A stretch of DNA of 31,866 nucleotides from a virus. Below the pieces are notes generated by a model that saw only the letters and a list, made by a program, of their open reading frames with translations, was not told where the DNA came from and did no database searches. The stretch is taken from positions 1 to 31,866 of IMG/VR virus record IMGVR_UViG_3300020020_000120; one strand, 5' to 3'. Positions 1,073 to 20,837 of the stretch are shown piece by piece; positions within the stretch are counted from its first letter, which is position 1, and each line of letters opens with the position of its first letter. The translations under genes and the position numbers were made by a program.

Positions 1073-1598
1073 AAATCTGTTTTGTTGCTGCAATGACGTT
1101 TGTTCTTAATACTTCCCTTTCTTCATCTGACAGGGAAAAGATTTCAGCATTGATTTGCTTTTCTTGACCCCTTGCAATTTTGTACAGGTCTTCGTCTGGA
1201 ATGGAACACACAACCCTGATTGTACTTTCTTTTATCACAACGATCCCCCGGCGAAGTGTCCCGGTGAATTCTAAATCCTTGTACCTGATTTGACGGCCCT
1301 TCGCAACCCTTTTCTTTTCGTACTGTGAAAGCCGTATGTCATCAACCTGACCAAAAAGGAATTCAATCTTCCGTCCTTCAAATTGTTTCTTGCTGACTGA
1401 CTTCTTGGGACCCCTGTAAGACCCCAAGGAAACGTTTCCAGCATCTTCACCCCGGTTGAATATCCTGACCTGCATGGTTGCCTTCGCTGCATTCACACCA
1501 ATTACAAGGGCTTCTGAAAGGTCAATGCTTAGTGCTTTTTCCTTTATGACCTTGAAGCGTTCGATCAGTTCACCGATATTTGAAGTGAAGTCCGTCAT
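1050..1598 (-). CDS. Phage neck / virion morphogenesis-like protein
   Basis: A 182-residue protein whose middle has the layout of phage virion-morphogenesis or HK97-gp10-type neck proteins known from Bacteroidota prophages: an N-terminal helix, then a segment ending in MQVRIFNRGEDA and GSYRG, a basic stretch with KGRQIRYKDLEFTGTL, and a C-terminal helix. These blocks are what I recognise; I cannot run a profile search to confirm. The start ATG at 1598 overlaps the upstream stop in an ATGA arrangement, indicating translational coupling with the 1595-2599 gene. Likely role: head completion or tail attachment. Alternative: tail terminator. Confidence 0.6.
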   Translation of the reverse strand: MTDFTSNIGELIERFKVIKEKALSIDLSEALVIGVNAAKATMQVRIFNRGEDAGNVSLGSYRGPKKSVSKKQFEGRKIEFLFGQVDDIRLSQYEKKRVAKGRQIRYKDLEFTGTLRRGIVVIKESTIRVVCSIPDEDLYKIARGQEKQINAEIFSLSDEEREVLRTNVIAATKQIYDRIFNS

Positions 1599-2599
1599 CC
1601 TGTTGCGTATGCTGTTTGAATTTTACTTTCACAAATAATGCACTTGTCAGAACGGTTGTTCTTCAGGTACGTGTTGACAATGCTTCTTAAACCCATCATG
1701 TCCCCGGTCCCTGTCAGGCTTTCTTTATACCTTTTTCCGTATGTGCTTTTCGTTTCAATTTGTGGTTCATCATTGAAAGAAACTGTGTCATTGTTCCTGT
1801 CCGCTTGGTTTTTGTTTTCGTAATACAGTTCACCAATCTTGTACACCATTGCAAGCCCGAACGTGTTTTCTGCTTGGTGTATCATGTCACATACAACGGC
1901 ATCATAACTACACCCAATAGAAACACAGGGAATGAACCCGTATTGTGTTGATCCTTCAACCCCGGCAATATGGCCTGACAGTGAAACCGGGTTGTTGGCT
2001 GTTGCTGATCCCCCACAACCACAAGAAGCCCCTGTTTGACAGCTTATCTGACCAAGGCCAACACTGATATCAGTGAACCCGATCTTCACGCTTTTCTGTG
2101 AAGTGGTGTATGTCATTTTCAACGGCATCAACACACCGGCCTGAATTGCAACATCAAAATTTTGAACAGTGTCCCCGTCATCAAAATAAAGTTCATAGGT
2201 CCCCGTCACGTCTGCCAGTATTACCAGCTTTGAAATCTTCAGGGTCTTGTACCTGCTTGCAATGGAAGGCTTCACTATGATCCCGGCATTGGCCGTGTAC
2301 ACCGGGGAAAGAACACAGGATGAACAAACGTCCCCAATTGATCCGTTCATCTTGTATCCATTGTTCATCAAGAATTCAATATCTGACAGCATCATTCTTG
2401 CAGCTGTGTTGATCAGCTGGTTGCCAAAGTCCTTCCCGCTTGGGTTGCTTGCTTTGGTCATTGAAGAAAGCTTCTTCACATCAAGGCCCTGAACGTCTTC
2501 AATCCAAAAAGGATATTGGTCTTCAACTTCACATTGGGACCTGATACCAACAAGTGATTGCAAACATTGTGTTTTGTCAATAAAGGTTGTAGGGAACAT
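1595..2599 (-). CDS. Conserved Bacteroidota phage structural protein, function unknown
   Basis: A 334-residue protein. The N terminus has the pattern TTFID..QCL..LVGIR..C followed by a WIEDVQGLDVKKLSSM block, and the middle has a TGTYELYFDDGDTVQNFDVAIQAGVLMPLKM segment made of short beta strands (quoted here only as a location, about residues 130-160). I recall similar proteins in Bacteroidota prophages, without a proven function. It is cysteine-rich, with a CGCGG run near residue 190 and a CIICESK pair near the C terminus that could bind metal. Genes on both sides are head or neck genes, so a virion role is likely. It might be a capsid-associated or neck protein; I find no HK97-type capsid signature and do not call it the major capsid. 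Confidence 0.55.
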   Translation of the reverse strand: MFPTTFIDKTQCLQSLVGIRSQCEVEDQYPFWIEDVQGLDVKKLSSMTKASNPSGKDFGNQLINTAARMMLSDIEFLMNNGYKMNGSIGDVCSSCVLSPVYTANAGIIVKPSIASRYKTLKISKLVILADVTGTYELYFDDGDTVQNFDVAIQAGVLMPLKMTYTTSQKSVKIGFTDISVGLGQISCQTGASCGCGGSATANNPVSLSGHIAGVEGSTQYGFIPCVSIGCSYDAVVCDMIHQAENTFGLAMVYKIGELYYENKNQADRNNDTVSFNDEPQIETKSTYGKRYKESLTGTGDMMGLRSIVNTYLKNNRSDKCIICESKIQTAYATG

Positions 2600-2605
2600 G
2601 TTTCT

Positions 2606-2776
2606 TTATTTTTTTGGTTCAAATACAATTTTATTATCCTGTTCTTTCAATGGCTTGGAATGTTCGTTTGTCTGAAGAATTTCATCCGGTATCCCTTCAG
2701 GGAATGCAGTGCAACCCCCGGCTTCCGGCCGAAAGTGTTTGCATTCAAAACATATCAGGTTTACAGTGTCGGTCAT
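2606..2776 (-). CDS. Small cysteine-containing phage protein (CKHF...GIP..IL family)
   Basis: A 56-residue gene starting with an ATG that overlaps the stop of the MuF gene (ATGA), ending in TAA seven bases before the ATG of the next gene. The protein contains CFECKHF, then a third cysteine (GGC), AFPEGIPDEIL, a histidine, PLKEQ and IVFEP. This order of elements is one I recognise from small proteins that follow the head morphogenesis gene in many phages. Three cysteines and histidines could form a zinc site. Function is not known to me; the coupling to the MuF gene suggests a head-related or scaffolding role. It lies in what would otherwise look like a 173-base gap. Confidence 0.75.
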   Translation of the reverse strand: MTDTVNLICFECKHFRPEAGGCTAFPEGIPDEILQTNEHSKPLKEQDNKIVFEPKK

Positions 2777-4389
2777 TTCTTGAAATATTTATCAATCAAA
2801 AGTCCAATTTTTTTGGCATATAAGGAAGGTTCACTTAAAAGCTGGTATTCCGTGAAGCCTTCTGCCATGAATTCGTTTAAGTTAGTTGAAGCATACTTCC
2901 CAAGGAATATTGCTGAATACTTGTCATCCTGACCAAATGATTTGAAATAATTGAGGTCATTGAAATATTCTTTCCTTATTTCTTCAAGTTCAACAAAAAA
3001 CTTCTTCACTTCAATATTAAAATTCCCTTGTTGATTGATTGCAATGACGTGTGCAAATTCATGGGTTGTTATCGCAAGCTTTTCGTTTGCAGGATCAACA
3101 GGGGACTTGCTTCGCAGATAGTCCGCTTTTGAATTTGTCCTTGTCCTGTTTGCAATGTGATCCGTTTGGTCCCCAAAGTTTATATCTGTGAATTGCCTTC
3201 CATAACCGTAATGCTTAACAACACCGAAATAACGTGAAGTACTTTTCATGTGTATTTTGACAGGATATGTCTTGTCAGAAGCATCACTTAGTTTGTAGGC
3301 ATTTGACAACCGCTGTATTTCAGCAATCCGGGCATTGATATCTTCCAATGGTAGTGTTGAAGAAATTGTTACTGACTTCACAGGAAGGCCAAGGTTTCCT
3401 TCAATAACGTCCTTGATCAATTGCCTTGCTTCAGTCTTACTTCTTGCAGCTTTAAACTTAGTTTGAAGAATTGGGTCCGGCTTCGTATCAACCTTTAAAG
3501 GTTCCTGCTTGGCCTTTGGCTTTGGTTTTTCAATGTCTTCAACAACGATCATTGGGGTGAAGTCATGCCGGCAACCCCAATGCAGTTTATTCAACGGAAG
3601 GTTCTTGATCGTTGTTCCTTCAATCAACTTGGCCTTTGGATTTGTCCGGGCAATGTCAAGTATCTTTTCCCATTCCGAAAACTTCAGGTATCCGCTGGTA
3701 TCATGTGACTGATCAACCGCTTCGATACACTGCTTGGAACTTGTTTCAATCAATGATCCAGAAATGATATATCCAGTAAAAACAAAATCATTGACAAGCT
3801 GCTGATTGATTGCCCCGGTGTAACTATCAACAGCCATCATTGCCGTTTGATCAAGGTAGCTTTTCAACTTCCCTGACTTATCCTGTCCGCCAAGAATGTA
3901 GTTGTTCAGGACTTCTTTCACGTCCCGCATATTCGCCCCGGCAAGAATGTTCCTGAATACATTTTCCTTCAATGGTGCAGCGAAGTGTGCATTCAAGCCG
4001 TTGCCAGTATATTGCTGAATGACTTCATCAACAATGGTCTTTTGAACAGCTGTGACACCGGCCGTTTCAATGTTAAAGTTGTGGGCTGTTTTGTGGAATA
4101 GCTTGTTGTTCGTTTGGATCGTTGTAAGGTCCCCAAGAAACTTGCTTATCCTTGATTGATAGGTTGGGGCTGAATTAACGATATCAACAACAGCTTGAAT
4201 GAATTCATCCATGACCCGGGACAGGTCTTCATCAGTTGCAATTTCACCCTTCTTGACTTCAAGGTTTTCAATCAACCAATCAAATGAACCGTCAACAACA
4301 CTTCTTTCCAGTGTTGACAAAGAACCCCACCGGTCCACTGCAAGCCTTTTCAGCCTGTTCAAGTTTTCCAGATATTCGGTAATTGTCAT
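2773..4389 (-). CDS. MuF-type minor head protein fused to a zinc metallopeptidase-like domain
   Basis: A 538-residue, two-part protein. Residues about 1-285 look like a phage head-morphogenesis (MuF) protein: a helical N terminus, then DSYTGAINQQL at 188, IETSSKQC with C221, and LHWGCRHDF at 269-277, the conserved Cys-Arg-His end of MuF domains. A lysine/proline-rich linker follows (residues 287-305). The C-terminal part contains TTHEFAHVI, a HExxH zinc site at residues 443-447, and NEFMAEGF at 505-512, giving E506 as a likely third ligand. This is the arrangement of a gluzincin-type metallopeptidase. MuF proteins with enzymatic tails are known as phage polymorphic toxins; a prohead or peptidoglycan role is an alternative. 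ATGA overlaps on both sides tie it to portal and the small cysteine gene. Confidence 0.8.
   Translation of the reverse strand: MTITEYLENLNRLKRLAVDRWGSLSTLERSVVDGSFDWLIENLEVKKGEIATDEDLSRVMDEFIQAVVDIVNSAPTYQSRISKFLGDLTTIQTNNKLFHKTAHNFNIETAGVTAVQKTIVDEVIQQYTGNGLNAHFAAPLKENVFRNILAGANMRDVKEVLNNYILGGQDKSGKLKSYLDQTAMMAVDSYTGAINQQLVNDFVFTGYIISGSLIETSSKQCIEAVDQSHDTSGYLKFSEWEKILDIARTNPKAKLIEGTTIKNLPLNKLHWGCRHDFTPMIVVEDIEKPKPKAKQEPLKVDTKPDPILQTKFKAARSKTEARQLIKDVIEGNLGLPVKSVTISSTLPLEDINARIAEIQRLSNAYKLSDASDKTYPVKIHMKSTSRYFGVVKHYGYGRQFTDINFGDQTDHIANRTRTNSKADYLRSKSPVDPANEKLAITTHEFAHVIAINQQGNFNIEVKKFFVELEEIRKEYFNDLNYFKSFGQDDKYSAIFLGKYASTNLNEFMAEGFTEYQLLSEPSLYAKKIGLLIDKYFKK
3454..3464. repeat. AAACTWAGTTT word, internal copy
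   Basis: Exact 11-base copy inside the MuF fusion gene, at codons for LQTKF near the end of the linker. Shares 18 contiguous bases with the copy at 1016 and sits in the same reading phase. Confidence 0.8.
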
Positions 4390-6197
4390 TCACCTTGTTG
4401 TTGTTGTTCCAAAAGTTTTGTCTTTAAATCCTTCACCGGTTCCGGCTTGTATTGTTCCAAGTCCTTCTTCAACGTTGCAACAATTTGATTGGTGTCCTTT
4501 GCAAAAAGGTCCTTGTCATTGAAGAACATATTTTGAAGCGTTGGGAATGCGAAAACGTGAACAGCAAATTGTTCAGGGGTGACAATCATGTTTGCTTTAA
4601 AGCCGGCAATTTCTGCATTGGTATAGTAAAGCAATGGATCAACAACCTTTAGAACATCAATAAACTTCCTGACAGGGGATGACTGTGAAATGAACTTATT
4701 CACGAAGCTATCAACTTGACTTGCCTTCAGCATGACAGGAACGTTGGAAGAAAGAATGTCCTTCAACGCTGTGAATGCTTCCGATTCACTAAGGATTGCA
4801 TACGAATAAGGAATTTCAACACTTACCTGAACAGGGGAAGCAATCATGTAATTTTCAAAGCACTGAAGCACGAAGCGAAGTCTTTGAAAGAAGCACTGTC
4901 CAACTTTGGTCAGGAAGGAATACATGTCATCCCGGTCAATCTGTTTTGATTCTGCACTCTCAACATTACCCGTTGCAACACGTTGGGAAATGTAAACGGC
5001 CGTTTCAGCCATTTCCAAATAATCCTTCCATTCGCTTTTGGAATATTCAAGAATTGAAGTATCCGGGGTATAATATTTTACATCATCAACATCAAGGTGC
5101 TTGTTATCACTTTCCAAACCTTGTGGATCATACTGCTTGACATAAACCTTGTAAGGGGTTTGATTTCTTGTGTATCCCGATCCCCCACACTTCCCGCAAT
5201 ACTTCCTATCCCCGTATTCGGATTGATCAGCTTCCGTTTCACAAAGGATTTGCCCGTTCTGACAACCTTCAGCATCACAGGGGGTTTGTATTTCAGACAT
5301 TCTTGGGAAGCTGAACGTGAAGTTCACAGCTGTATGTTGTGAATGCTGAAGAAGGGCCAAGTTGCCAAATGATACAAAGGGGTTCAGGAAACTTTTGTTC
5401 ACGTTGTGCTTGGACTTTTCCCCGCCGGCATCAATGACAGGAAGGAATTCTTGCTTGAATTCAAATTCTTCAATGTCGTATTCCTTTGCATCTTCTGTCT
5501 GTGAAATCCTGATAAGGCCAAAGTCTTTCATGAAGACATGGTACACATACTTTTTAAACGTTGCCTTCATTTTCGGGGTGTATGTGTTTTCCCTTGCTTC
5601 CCGGAAATTGGGCCTGTTTATGGTTTGATCATAAAAGGTTTCACTCCAAACATGGACTTCTTCAATTTCATAATCAACAACGCTTTCTTTTTCACTGATA
5701 AAAATAACCATGTCGTTTGACAGGTATTTAATGTGACAGCTTTCAATGAAGACAACGGGGCCTGTACCATACTTTTCAACGTATTCCGGGGGATACACAA
5801 CGATCCGGGAATTGGCATCTTGCTTCAATGCAAACTTCACCCATTCATCAAGGAACCATGCAAAGAAGTTCATCCCGTCAAAGGTGTGTTCAGAAGTGTA
5901 TTGTAGGACCTTTTCAGACGCTTCTACCGTGTAGGAAGAATTTTTGAATATCCTGTTCACGTTATTGGCTGCACGTCCAAACGAAGCTTCTGTGACACTC
6001 TCAAAGGCAAGTATCCTGTTCTTCTTGCTTTCAGGGTGTTCGTTCGGGAACAACGTGTTCAGTTTATAAAATATTTCTCCTTGGCTGTGAACCTGTACGG
6101 CTTCAGCATACTTTTTAAAAAGTTTCCTTTGCCATTCAGGAAGCTTCTTCCCAATGACAAAGGAAACAAGGTCTTTTTCAGACTGAAATTGAGGCAT
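4386..6197 (-). CDS. Portal protein with inserted zinc-finger-like module
   Basis: A 603-residue protein assigned as portal from size, position directly before the MuF gene, and overall pattern: N-terminal helical region, a beta-rich segment with YPPEYVEKYG, a wing-like region, a central segment followed by a long stem-like helix (about residues 400-450, with AESKQIDRDDMYSFL), and a Gln-rich C terminus (LEQQQQ). Residues 307-341 hold a cysteine module: CDAEGC, a further C319, then CGKCGGSGY, reminiscent of DnaJ-type CxxCxGxG zinc fingers. I recall cysteine modules in portal-like proteins of Bacteroidota phages. Portals form the dodecameric ring through which DNA enters and leaves the head. 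Start ATG at 6197 lies one base from an AAACTWAGTTT site; the stop overlaps the MuF start. Confidence 0.75.
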   Translation of the reverse strand: MPQFQSEKDLVSFVIGKKLPEWQRKLFKKYAEAVQVHSQGEIFYKLNTLFPNEHPESKKNRILAFESVTEASFGRAANNVNRIFKNSSYTVEASEKVLQYTSEHTFDGMNFFAWFLDEWVKFALKQDANSRIVVYPPEYVEKYGTGPVVFIESCHIKYLSNDMVIFISEKESVVDYEIEEVHVWSETFYDQTINRPNFREARENTYTPKMKATFKKYVYHVFMKDFGLIRISQTEDAKEYDIEEFEFKQEFLPVIDAGGEKSKHNVNKSFLNPFVSFGNLALLQHSQHTAVNFTFSFPRMSEIQTPCDAEGCQNGQILCETEADQSEYGDRKYCGKCGGSGYTRNQTPYKVYVKQYDPQGLESDNKHLDVDDVKYYTPDTSILEYSKSEWKDYLEMAETAVYISQRVATGNVESAESKQIDRDDMYSFLTKVGQCFFQRLRFVLQCFENYMIASPVQVSVEIPYSYAILSESEAFTALKDILSSNVPVMLKASQVDSFVNKFISQSSPVRKFIDVLKVVDPLLYYTNAEIAGFKANMIVTPEQFAVHVFAFPTLQNMFFNDKDLFAKDTNQIVATLKKDLEQYKPEPVKDLKTKLLEQQQQGE

Positions 6198-18999: not shown

Positions 19000-20355
19000 C
19001 TACATATTGACAAACTTTCTAAGGTCATGGTACATGAAATACCGGCCGTTGTCAAGCAAGTGGGTTTTCAACTTATCCTTCTTATCAATTTCCCCGGTGT
19101 CAGAAACCTTGACCGTTGCAATGTCATCAATGAAGAACTGACATGCTGAAGAAACCTTAAAGTTGGGATGCCTGTGAAAGACACTGTTCATGACTATCCG
19201 TGTATCAGCAATTGAAGGGTTCACAACTGGAAACCTTACTTGCCGTGGTGAAAGCTGAAGTTCTGACTTTATGATTTGAATGTATGACCGCTTCCCCTTC
19301 ACTGCCCCCTGTCTTGCCCGGCCGGAAGCATCCCCACTGACTTCAACGTAATATCCAGCCTTGACCCAATCGGTATTGATCCGGGTAAGGACCTCAAAAA
19401 TATCACTGTCCCGCAATCGGTATTCCTGAAGGACCTTGGACCATATCAACCCGTTGCTTTGTGTGACAAGGCAAGTCATTGGATCAACGTTGAAGTCAAA
19501 CCAAAGCTTCACAGGAAGGACCTTGATTGGTTTACTCCATGCAATACCCGCCGGGGTTGTGATATCAACAACATGCTTTTCTTCATCGAACGAATAAGCA
19601 AACAGCTTTGCATCATTGGCAAACCGCCAAACCGATTTGATAAGCTGGTTGTATGAAATGGGATCAAGGTTGTTCCAGTTCTTCCACTGATCAGCTGTGA
19701 CAAATGGGTTGTCAGACGGAAGGGCTTCTTGATAGAACCAATCTTCAGGAAGTGTCCCGGCCGTATGCCTGTCATAAAGCTTTTTCTTTACCCAAGTATT
19801 TGTTGGGTTGAACGTTCCCATCAGTAACGGGATAGGCATGTTCTTAATGTACCATGATCCCAACCTTTCAATTGCCCGTTCTAAAAGCTTTTCGGAAATG
19901 CCTTCCATCTGTTCCAAGAAGATACCATTGGTTTCAAGGCCAAGCATCCACTTCAGTTCAGGGTCTTTCATCAGGTTTTCTGACTTGAAGAATATCTTGC
20001 TCCCGTTCTTAAAAACAATGTGATAGTTTGAGGGCTTTCGCTTCCAATAGAAGTCTGTCCCTTCCGTACCAAGAAGCTTTTCCATTGATGGAATGGTTGT
20101 GTCTTCAAGTTCCGGGAAGTCTGAACGGAATATATGCCACCGGGACCGGGGGAACATTCTTGCCAGTACGACAAGGATATACAGGCATACATAAGTTTTC
20201 CCGCCCCTGATTGCCCCGCCGTAAAAGAAAAACCGGAACTGATTAATCCCGGCAATTGCTTTCATGACCTGATCATAAAAGTTGCATTGTGGTTGGTTCA
20301 CTATACCGGTTTCAGGGTGTCTGAATGCAAATGCAACGTGTTCCTTTTTAGTCAT
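19000..20355 (-). CDS. terL: Terminase large subunit
   Basis: A 451-residue protein from ATG at 20355 (MTKKEHVAFAF), which overlaps the upstream stop as ATGA; a longer start is less likely. ATPase domain: Walker A GGAIRGGKT at 46-54, Walker B GIFLEQM at 144-150 with catalytic E148, and a coupling motif LLMGTFNPTN at 177-186. The C-terminal nuclease domain has FDFNVDP near 286-292, SGDASGR at 340-346 and an Asp-containing HLLDNGRYF near the end, the acidic residues that bind metal in RNase H-like terminase nucleases. The enzyme powers DNA into the prohead and cuts the concatemer. It pairs with the small subunit at 21344-21946. Confidence 0.93.
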   Translation of the reverse strand: MTKKEHVAFAFRHPETGIVNQPQCNFYDQVMKAIAGINQFRFFFYGGAIRGGKTYVCLYILVVLARMFPRSRWHIFRSDFPELEDTTIPSMEKLLGTEGTDFYWKRKPSNYHIVFKNGSKIFFKSENLMKDPELKWMLGLETNGIFLEQMEGISEKLLERAIERLGSWYIKNMPIPLLMGTFNPTNTWVKKKLYDRHTAGTLPEDWFYQEALPSDNPFVTADQWKNWNNLDPISYNQLIKSVWRFANDAKLFAYSFDEEKHVVDITTPAGIAWSKPIKVLPVKLWFDFNVDPMTCLVTQSNGLIWSKVLQEYRLRDSDIFEVLTRINTDWVKAGYYVEVSGDASGRARQGAVKGKRSYIQIIKSELQLSPRQVRFPVVNPSIADTRIVMNSVFHRHPNFKVSSACQFFIDDIATVKVSDTGEIDKKDKLKTHLLDNGRYFMYHDLRKFVNM

Positions 20356-20837
20356 AGCCTGTTTTTGTATGTCAGCAAACAACAACCAAGAAATTGCCGT
20401 TGCTGGTATAGGGTAACAACCTTCTTGTGTATTTTCTGAAGGTCATGTTGGTATTTGTGGATCATTGGGGCCTTCTTCTTTAGGACCAAGAATTGAACTG
20501 AAGGATCAAGTGACATTTCAACCCACATCAACCCGGCCCAATTTGGTATTTCAGGAACTTGGATCAATCCAGCTGGAACAACATAATAGATTTGATTTGG
20601 TACACGGCCCGGCCAAAGATGAACATTGTCAATCCTGAACTTCTTCCCCTTTCGTGCATCCCGTTTGAAGTCTGCCCGGCTAATCTTTACTTCATACTCA
20701 ATGACAATGCCGGTCTTGCTCACTGAAATCATATCCTGTTGCCCGGCAAATAAATGGTTCACATTGGGACAAACAAGTTGATGCCCGGCAATAACCCGGT
20801 CTTTTCCTATCACTGCAACAATACTTGCTTCTGTCAT
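20352..20837 (-). CDS. PD-(D/E)XK nuclease-like protein (MmcB-like)
   Basis: A 161-residue protein. D35 followed by IEYEVKISRADFKRD (E49, K51) gives the D...ExK core of the PD-(D/E)XK nuclease fold, and the later segment IYYVVPAGLIQVPEIPNWAGLMWV (about residues 83-106) is the pattern of small nuclease-like proteins related to MmcB. It is coupled by ATGA overlaps to the gene before and to large terminase after it. Possible roles: trimming DNA ends during packaging, recombination-linked nuclease, or anti-host nuclease. The fold call rests on motifs seen by eye. Confidence 0.65.
   Translation of the reverse strand: MTEASIVAVIGKDRVIAGHQLVCPNVNHLFAGQQDMISVSKTGIVIEYEVKISRADFKRDARKGKKFRIDNVHLWPGRVPNQIYYVVPAGLIQVPEIPNWAGLMWVEMSLDPSVQFLVLKKKAPMIHKYQHDLQKIHKKVVTLYQQRQFLGCCLLTYKNRL

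Follow-up and report, generated by a model that had tools for sequence, protein, structure and literature searches.

The window analyzed here is the complete IMG/VR record IMGVR_UViG_3300020020_000120 (31,866 bases, no end repeats), which is possibly a genome fragment. It encodes a MuF-type head protein with a zincin domain as its C-terminal tail, followed by a small gene of a family referred to here as Cys3His. Tail and small gene probably constitute an effector-immunity cassette of the MuF polymorphic toxin type, carried by phages in which no lysogeny genes were detected. The features on which this reading is based are as follows, in the order of transcription.

4386-6197, minus strand: portal-like gene, 603 aa (PHROG portal family, E 0.0056), directly upstream and overlapping the MuF start by 4 nt
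2773-4389, minus strand: MuF-zincin fusion gene, 538 aa plus stop (ORF reading)
3538-4389, minus strand: MuF-type head part, residues 1-284, with an HWGCRHDF motif at its end (untailed relatives and a remote profile match of the PF04233 kind)
3478-3537, minus strand: Pro/Lys-rich linker, residues 285-304 (site where the tails of relatives attach or are missing)
2776-3477, minus strand: predicted zincin domain, residues 305-538 (alignment of 14, model with pLDDT 91.2, structure comparison)
3049-3063, minus strand: HEFAH, residues 443-447, predicted to supply two zinc ligands and the catalytic glutamate (H, E and H invariant in 52/52)
2893-2895, minus strand: Tyr 499, seven residues ahead of Glu 506, candidate catalytic tyrosine (invariant in 52/52)
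2854-2877, minus strand: NEFMAEGF, residues 505-512, with Glu 506 as predicted third zinc ligand and Glu 510 invariant too (52/52)
2606-2776, minus strand: 56-aa Cys3His protein P0002, predicted to act as an immunity or inhibitor protein (its start overlaps the zincin stop, ATGA)
1595-2599, minus strand: next gene, 334 aa, marking the end of the cassette (homologues lie directly after MuF in the untailed L002 and L004)

The original prediction had described an HExxH fusion ORF at 2773-4389. The ORF is real, but it is encoded on the minus strand and has 538 residues; HEFAH at residues 443-447, the NEF.AEGF block around 505 (NEFMAEGF, residues 505-512) and the Pro/Lys-rich linker (about residues 285-304) are all present as claimed. 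The MuF label was given because of the position after the portal-like gene with its 4-nt overlap, the HWGCRH motif at the end of the N-terminal part, and a remote match of that part's profile to PF04233-like proteins (E 4.4e-5, probability 69%). A Pfam search of the window found no match to PF04233 or PF06152 even at E 1, a narrower profile pair for the MuF part gave no match (probability 1.3), and the portal assignment of the upstream gene is itself weak (PHROG portal E 0.0056). PF04233 scored over the cut-off in five of the ten zincin carriers scanned. As in MuF toxins, the fusion gene lies directly downstream of the portal-like gene. Two untailed relatives, L002 (68% identical) and L004 (60%), consist of the MuF part alone and end after about residue 284. 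Two further observations concern this region. The portal-like protein (4386-6197, minus) has a Cys-rich insertion, CDAEGC ... YCGKCGGSG, which resembles a zinc-binding knuckle and is unusual in portals. The gene order is also unusual (minus strand, 20385 to 115): fibre-like, lysis-like and tape-measure-like genes come after the large terminase gene (19000-20385) and before portal and MuF.

The zincin domain was modeled with high confidence (pLDDT 91.2, pTM 0.90). H443, E444, H447, Y499, E506 and E510 were invariant in 52 of 52 non-redundant relatives, and 14 C-terminal domains from different phages could be aligned (excluding L001, which is truncated at its 3' end, and the tailless L002 and L004). 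Since the active-site residues are invariant in 52 relatives and the domain folds with high confidence, the zincin motif is not a chance occurrence. The window protein gave no confident match to sequence families and no match to Pfam ATLF (PF07737) up to E 1; weak ATLF matches were found in three of 14 relatives, the best at E 0.02, and the curated cut-off was not reached. A Foldseek search of the model against the PDB gave nothing below E 0.3. With a second structure aligner, the catalytic domain of lethal factor was matched at Z 7.8 (rmsd 4.4, 176 of 234 residues aligned), followed by a putative metal-dependent hydrolase (Z 7.7), the PPEP peptidases (PPEP-1, up to Z 7.2) and Certhrax (Z 6.2); these values are middling, and Z below 8 can mean a shared arrangement only. 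The top 41 structure matches were metallopeptidases or toxins of the lethal-factor group, and the first unrelated row appeared at Z 5.3. Among viral structure models, three phage proteins matched the whole domain (E 2e-21 to 1e-15). The zincin fold that had been expected was recovered by structure prediction (pLDDT 91), with lethal-factor-like peptidases as nearest folds, and we conclude from the model that the domain is a predicted gluzincin of the lethal-factor/PPEP neighbourhood, outside Pfam ATLF. It shares with the ATLF and PPEP gluzincins the fold neighbourhood (Z 7.8 and 7.2) and an HExxH with a downstream Glu. In known ATLF/PPEP enzymes a Tyr stands seven residues ahead of the downstream Glu, the same spacing as in the window domain. 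It is unlike ATLF in that the window protein has no Pfam ATLF match and that its action, if any, would take place in bacteria.

No immunity gene had been thought evident downstream. This did not hold up: a 56-aa ORF (2606-2776, minus) overlaps the fusion-gene stop by 4 nt (ATGA) and occupies the space before the next gene, and its family follows every carrier with an intact 3' end. C9, C12, C22, A24, I29, H39 and Q46 were invariant in an alignment of 35 homologues, and the median Ka/Ks was 0.15 (126 non-independent pairs), which together identify P0002 as a real gene. It had no match in Pfam or NCBIfam and a weak match in PHROG to a family of unknown function. Its structure model is modest (pLDDT 80.8, pTM 0.55), and a fold search against the PDB returned no match.

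The two genes are tightly coupled. All 91 carrier ORFs whose 3' end is intact have a Cys3His-family ORF after the zincin, 89 of these detected by search and two (L035 and L085, small ORF cut by the contig end) recognised in the DNA; four of 95 zincin ORFs, whose 3' end is cut, were left out. The 91 include overlapping fetches of the same contigs and correspond to 64 distinct small proteins. In untailed MuF loci the family was found in 0 of 60 (best E 0.25). For 52 cassettes, those of 61 non-redundant pairs with a MuF part longer than 150 aa, small-protein distances had a partial correlation of 0.39 with the zincin beyond MuF, vs. 0.09 with MuF given the zincin; by this measure the small protein tracks the zincin, not MuF. 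The scans kept the best 80 relatives of 103, of 123, of 145 and of 211. Viewed from the small protein, 71 ORFs in 69 viral loci were obtained: 63 adjoin this zincin type, three adjoin another HExxH protein, one is cut, and the remaining four are solitary and lie in two loci (L321 and L323). Each of these two loci has two Cys3His genes 1.4 kb apart with no effector directly upstream (L321, 2009-2224 and 3387-3707; L323, 2021-2236 and 3405-3692).

A small ORF also abuts the stop of nine further proteins of this MuF family that end in other HExxH tails (L100, L107, L111, L112, L136, L144, L152, L167 and L174). These small ORFs are mostly unrelated to Cys3His, the one in L100 being of the Cys3His type, and two HExxH tails (L156 and L165) have no abutting small ORF. 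One MuF protein of the window's family (L099, 6001-7524), in a record with an integrase, has a tail without HExxH and no small ORF nearby; this tail gave no match to Pfam, and from its motifs we take it to be of nuclease character.

The zincin domain sits at the C-terminal end of its carriers and was found on several unrelated N-terminal clusters (41, 15, 6, 2 and 1 members). In relatives, the same MuF part is also followed by other C-terminal domains or by none, a comparison that the original prediction had itself proposed. MuF parts that are 97-99% identical carry this zincin (L005 and L109), another HExxH tail (L111 and L174) or no tail (L131). At the DNA level, the extra block in the four tailed loci (L005, L109, L111 and L174) vs. 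L131 extends from near MuF residue 282 to the end of the small ORF, so that L131 represents an empty site for the tail and small-ORF block. The L111-type tail aligned with the window zincin only from the HExxH helix on (hhalign probability 21%). A matching exchange is seen in cultured phages. Zincin and small ORF are both present in the Flavobacterium phages lotta8-1 and lotta8-2. In pippi8-1, a sister phage obtained from the same host strain, the first 284 residues of the MuF part are 94.8% identical and lead into another HExxH tail (HEIGH), followed by another, acidic 70-aa ORF. The whole genomes of lotta8-2 (compared without its last 89 bases) and pippi8-1 form two colinear blocks, 99.69% and 98.73% identical, and the sole non-homologous stretch, 997 nt in pippi and 902 nt in lotta, is the tail plus small ORF. 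FPSV-S1, a relative at 48.8%, has neither zincin nor small ORF. The two genes are thus coupled, and on near-identical backbones they are present, absent or replaced together. At the level of sequence, these comparisons show the last 234 codons of the fusion gene and the overlapping 56-codon gene to be one exchangeable cassette.

These exchanges bear on two other explanations of the tail. The zincin could be a peptidase of head maturation or self-processing, cutting MuF or other proteins of the head, a role that had been raised at the outset. The linker between MuF and zincin would suit it, and zincin-like domains of phage polyvalent proteins have been proposed as processors of multidomain polypeptides (PMC5512222). 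We rejected this role, now quite improbable, because tails are swapped or missing on MuF parts that are 97-99% identical; the different tails of lotta and pippi in otherwise matching genomes argue against it as well, as does the separate ClpP-like protease gene annotated in lotta. That the tail is dispensable and untailed relatives are common might instead suggest a degenerate or neutral passenger without function. This is hardly credible, given that the catalytic residues are invariant in 52/52 and that purifying selection acts on the small ORF (median Ka/Ks 0.15, from the 126 non-independent pairs).

We examined the Cys3His family in bacteria and archaea, where 145 of 245 candidates were confirmed and the best 80 of the 145 were kept. 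In 30 of these 80 loci, the small gene starts within 30 nt of the end of an upstream ORF that is 100 aa or longer; the other 50 have no such upstream ORF, and some of them begin at a contig end. For 20 of the 30, the upstream protein was scanned with Pfam. Ten of the 20 upstream proteins have an HExxH near the C-terminus and no ADP-ribosyltransferase match, six end in an ADP-ribosyltransferase domain (PF03496, over cut-off), three are MuF proteins whose tail is of unknown type, and one is an unrelated ATPase. The MuF proteins with a tail of unknown kind in L209, L238 and L254 are from methanogens, each with a Cys3His gene behind it. On an Oscillatoria plasmid (L175), the Cys3His gene (3983-4168) lies a few bases after a very large protein ending in ART-PolyVal. 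In Bacteroidota bins, some solitary copies have type I restriction genes (L181, 3501-3659; L192, 3501-3638) or cas1-cas2 (L191, 1172-1315) no more than a few kb away; the neighbours of another (L182) are, judged by gene name, presumably housekeeping genes.

A peptide-pattern scan of 84,980 species confirmed no zincin among 587 candidates. The idea that the zincin is absent from bacteria was nevertheless dropped, as two Bacteroidota bins reached via the small protein (L184 and L218) carry zincins of this type. Their fusion genes (L184, 3688-5346, minus; L218, 3726-6323, minus) are convergent to the Cys3His gene and not upstream of it.

A zincin-specific inhibitor was rejected as the function of the small protein: the Cys3His family also follows ADP-ribosyltransferase tails, and its occurrence with these enzymes and alone in bacteria weakens the idea. 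Its breadth fits either an immunity family serving several effectors or a general partner of effectors. In the second case the small protein would assist C-terminal effectors as a loading factor, a chaperone or a supplier of zinc, and the zincin would still be injected. One family accompanying two unrelated enzyme classes, zincin and ADP-ribosyltransferase, speaks for such a partner, as do the invariant C9, C12, C22 and H39, which suggest a zinc site. ADP-ribosyltransferases require no zinc, which makes zinc delivery a poor fit. A single loading factor is difficult to reconcile with other zincin tails that have unrelated small ORFs, as immunity proteins would have, and the solitary bacterial copies also count against a partner role, which we regard as rather unlikely overall.

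The carriers seem to differ from temperate phages. In 28 carrier records, chosen by length and many of which may be fragments, no tyrosine integrase, rve or serine resolvase (PF00589, PF00665, PF00239) was found, and an integrase was present in two of 12 other records (L099 and L136). The missing integrase, transposase and resolvase genes are supportive of a non-temperate lifestyle and do not amount to proof. The authors who described lotta and pippi found no genes for lysogenic replication, which pointed to lytic replication only (PMC7077304). The original prediction, that MuF proteins with toxin tails are known mainly from temperate phages of other phyla, understated the difference: an integrase, rve or resolvase match is missing from 28 of the 28 carrier records, and the isolated relatives are described as lytic only (PMC7077304).

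The reading as an effector-immunity cassette would work as follows. The effector would be a lethal-factor-like zinc metallopeptidase, as its predicted fold and conserved active-site residues indicate, and the Cys3His protein most likely neutralises it. Through the MuF part, the enzyme would be placed beside the portal within the head, in a few copies; by analogy with the known place of MuF proteins, the zincin may be packaged there and pass with the DNA into the next cell, where it would cut at least one bacterial protein. The small protein would be co-produced with the enzyme and would guard the producing cell and the phage proteins until the effector is packaged. Proteolysis, the bacterial targets and inhibition by the small protein are thus all putative, and the need for immunity is less obvious in a lytic phage than in a lysogen.

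MuF toxins have so far been explained via lysogeny, by the choice between lysis and lysogeny or by competition between lysogens. Cassettes of the same layout that are exchanged as units between near-identical isolates, in phages without lysogeny genes, call for another account, for instance that phages compete with each other or that host defences are attacked. We tentatively suggest, as a speculation with the odds against it, that strictly lytic phages use these cassettes against each other. The injected zincin would harm replication in a cell occupied by a rival type, and the small protein made in that cell would protect against the same type only; lotta8 and pippi8, which share a host and differ essentially in this cassette, would then be two kin groups, and the solitary bacterial copies would be captured immunity genes used for host defence. 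Because lotta8, pippi8 and their host are cultured, direct testing is possible.

We found no earlier description of a zincin and Cys3His cassette, or of MuF toxins of virulent phages, in the open-access library searched. What is added here is a defined zincin and Cys3His cassette and its replacement as a unit between near-identical isolates described as lytic; the Cys3His family is a new candidate immunity family spanning phages, bacteria and archaea. MuF toxins were defined by Jamet et al. (2017; PMC5576092). There, a metallopeptidase domain was present in 20% of 191 putative toxins, a small ORF followed 89.4% of MuF toxin genes vs. 25.5% of 952 short MuF genes, and the family was called exclusively temperate, with no virulent phage having a known toxin domain. 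The present fusion resembles these polymorphic toxins in its post-portal gene, probable MuF part at the N-terminus, variable C-terminal enzyme and downstream small ORF. It differs in having a MuF part of a remote type that Pfam does not match, and in that the toxins described there are temperate (PMC5576092), whereas the carriers here, including isolates described as lytic, have no lysogeny genes. The closest experimental case is Bxa, a MuF ADP-ribosyltransferase toxin of Bacteroides stercoris whose adjacent immunity proteins were demonstrated experimentally (Alexei et al., PMC11699363). Bxa with Bsi and BAH shares with our system a MuF fusion, a Bacteroidota phage and adjacent small immunity genes; there, the enzyme is an ADP-ribosyltransferase, the phage a prophage and the immunity experimental, whereas here the enzyme is a predicted zincin, no lysogeny genes were detected and immunity is predicted (PMC11699363). 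The zincin-like MPTase of phage polyvalent proteins resembles the present domain as a zincin related to the lethal-factor group and delivered by a phage, which is the route predicted here. That domain is a hub in giant multidomain proteins (PMC5512222), whereas the zincin described here is one domain at the C-terminus of a head protein, accompanied by a small partner gene of its own.
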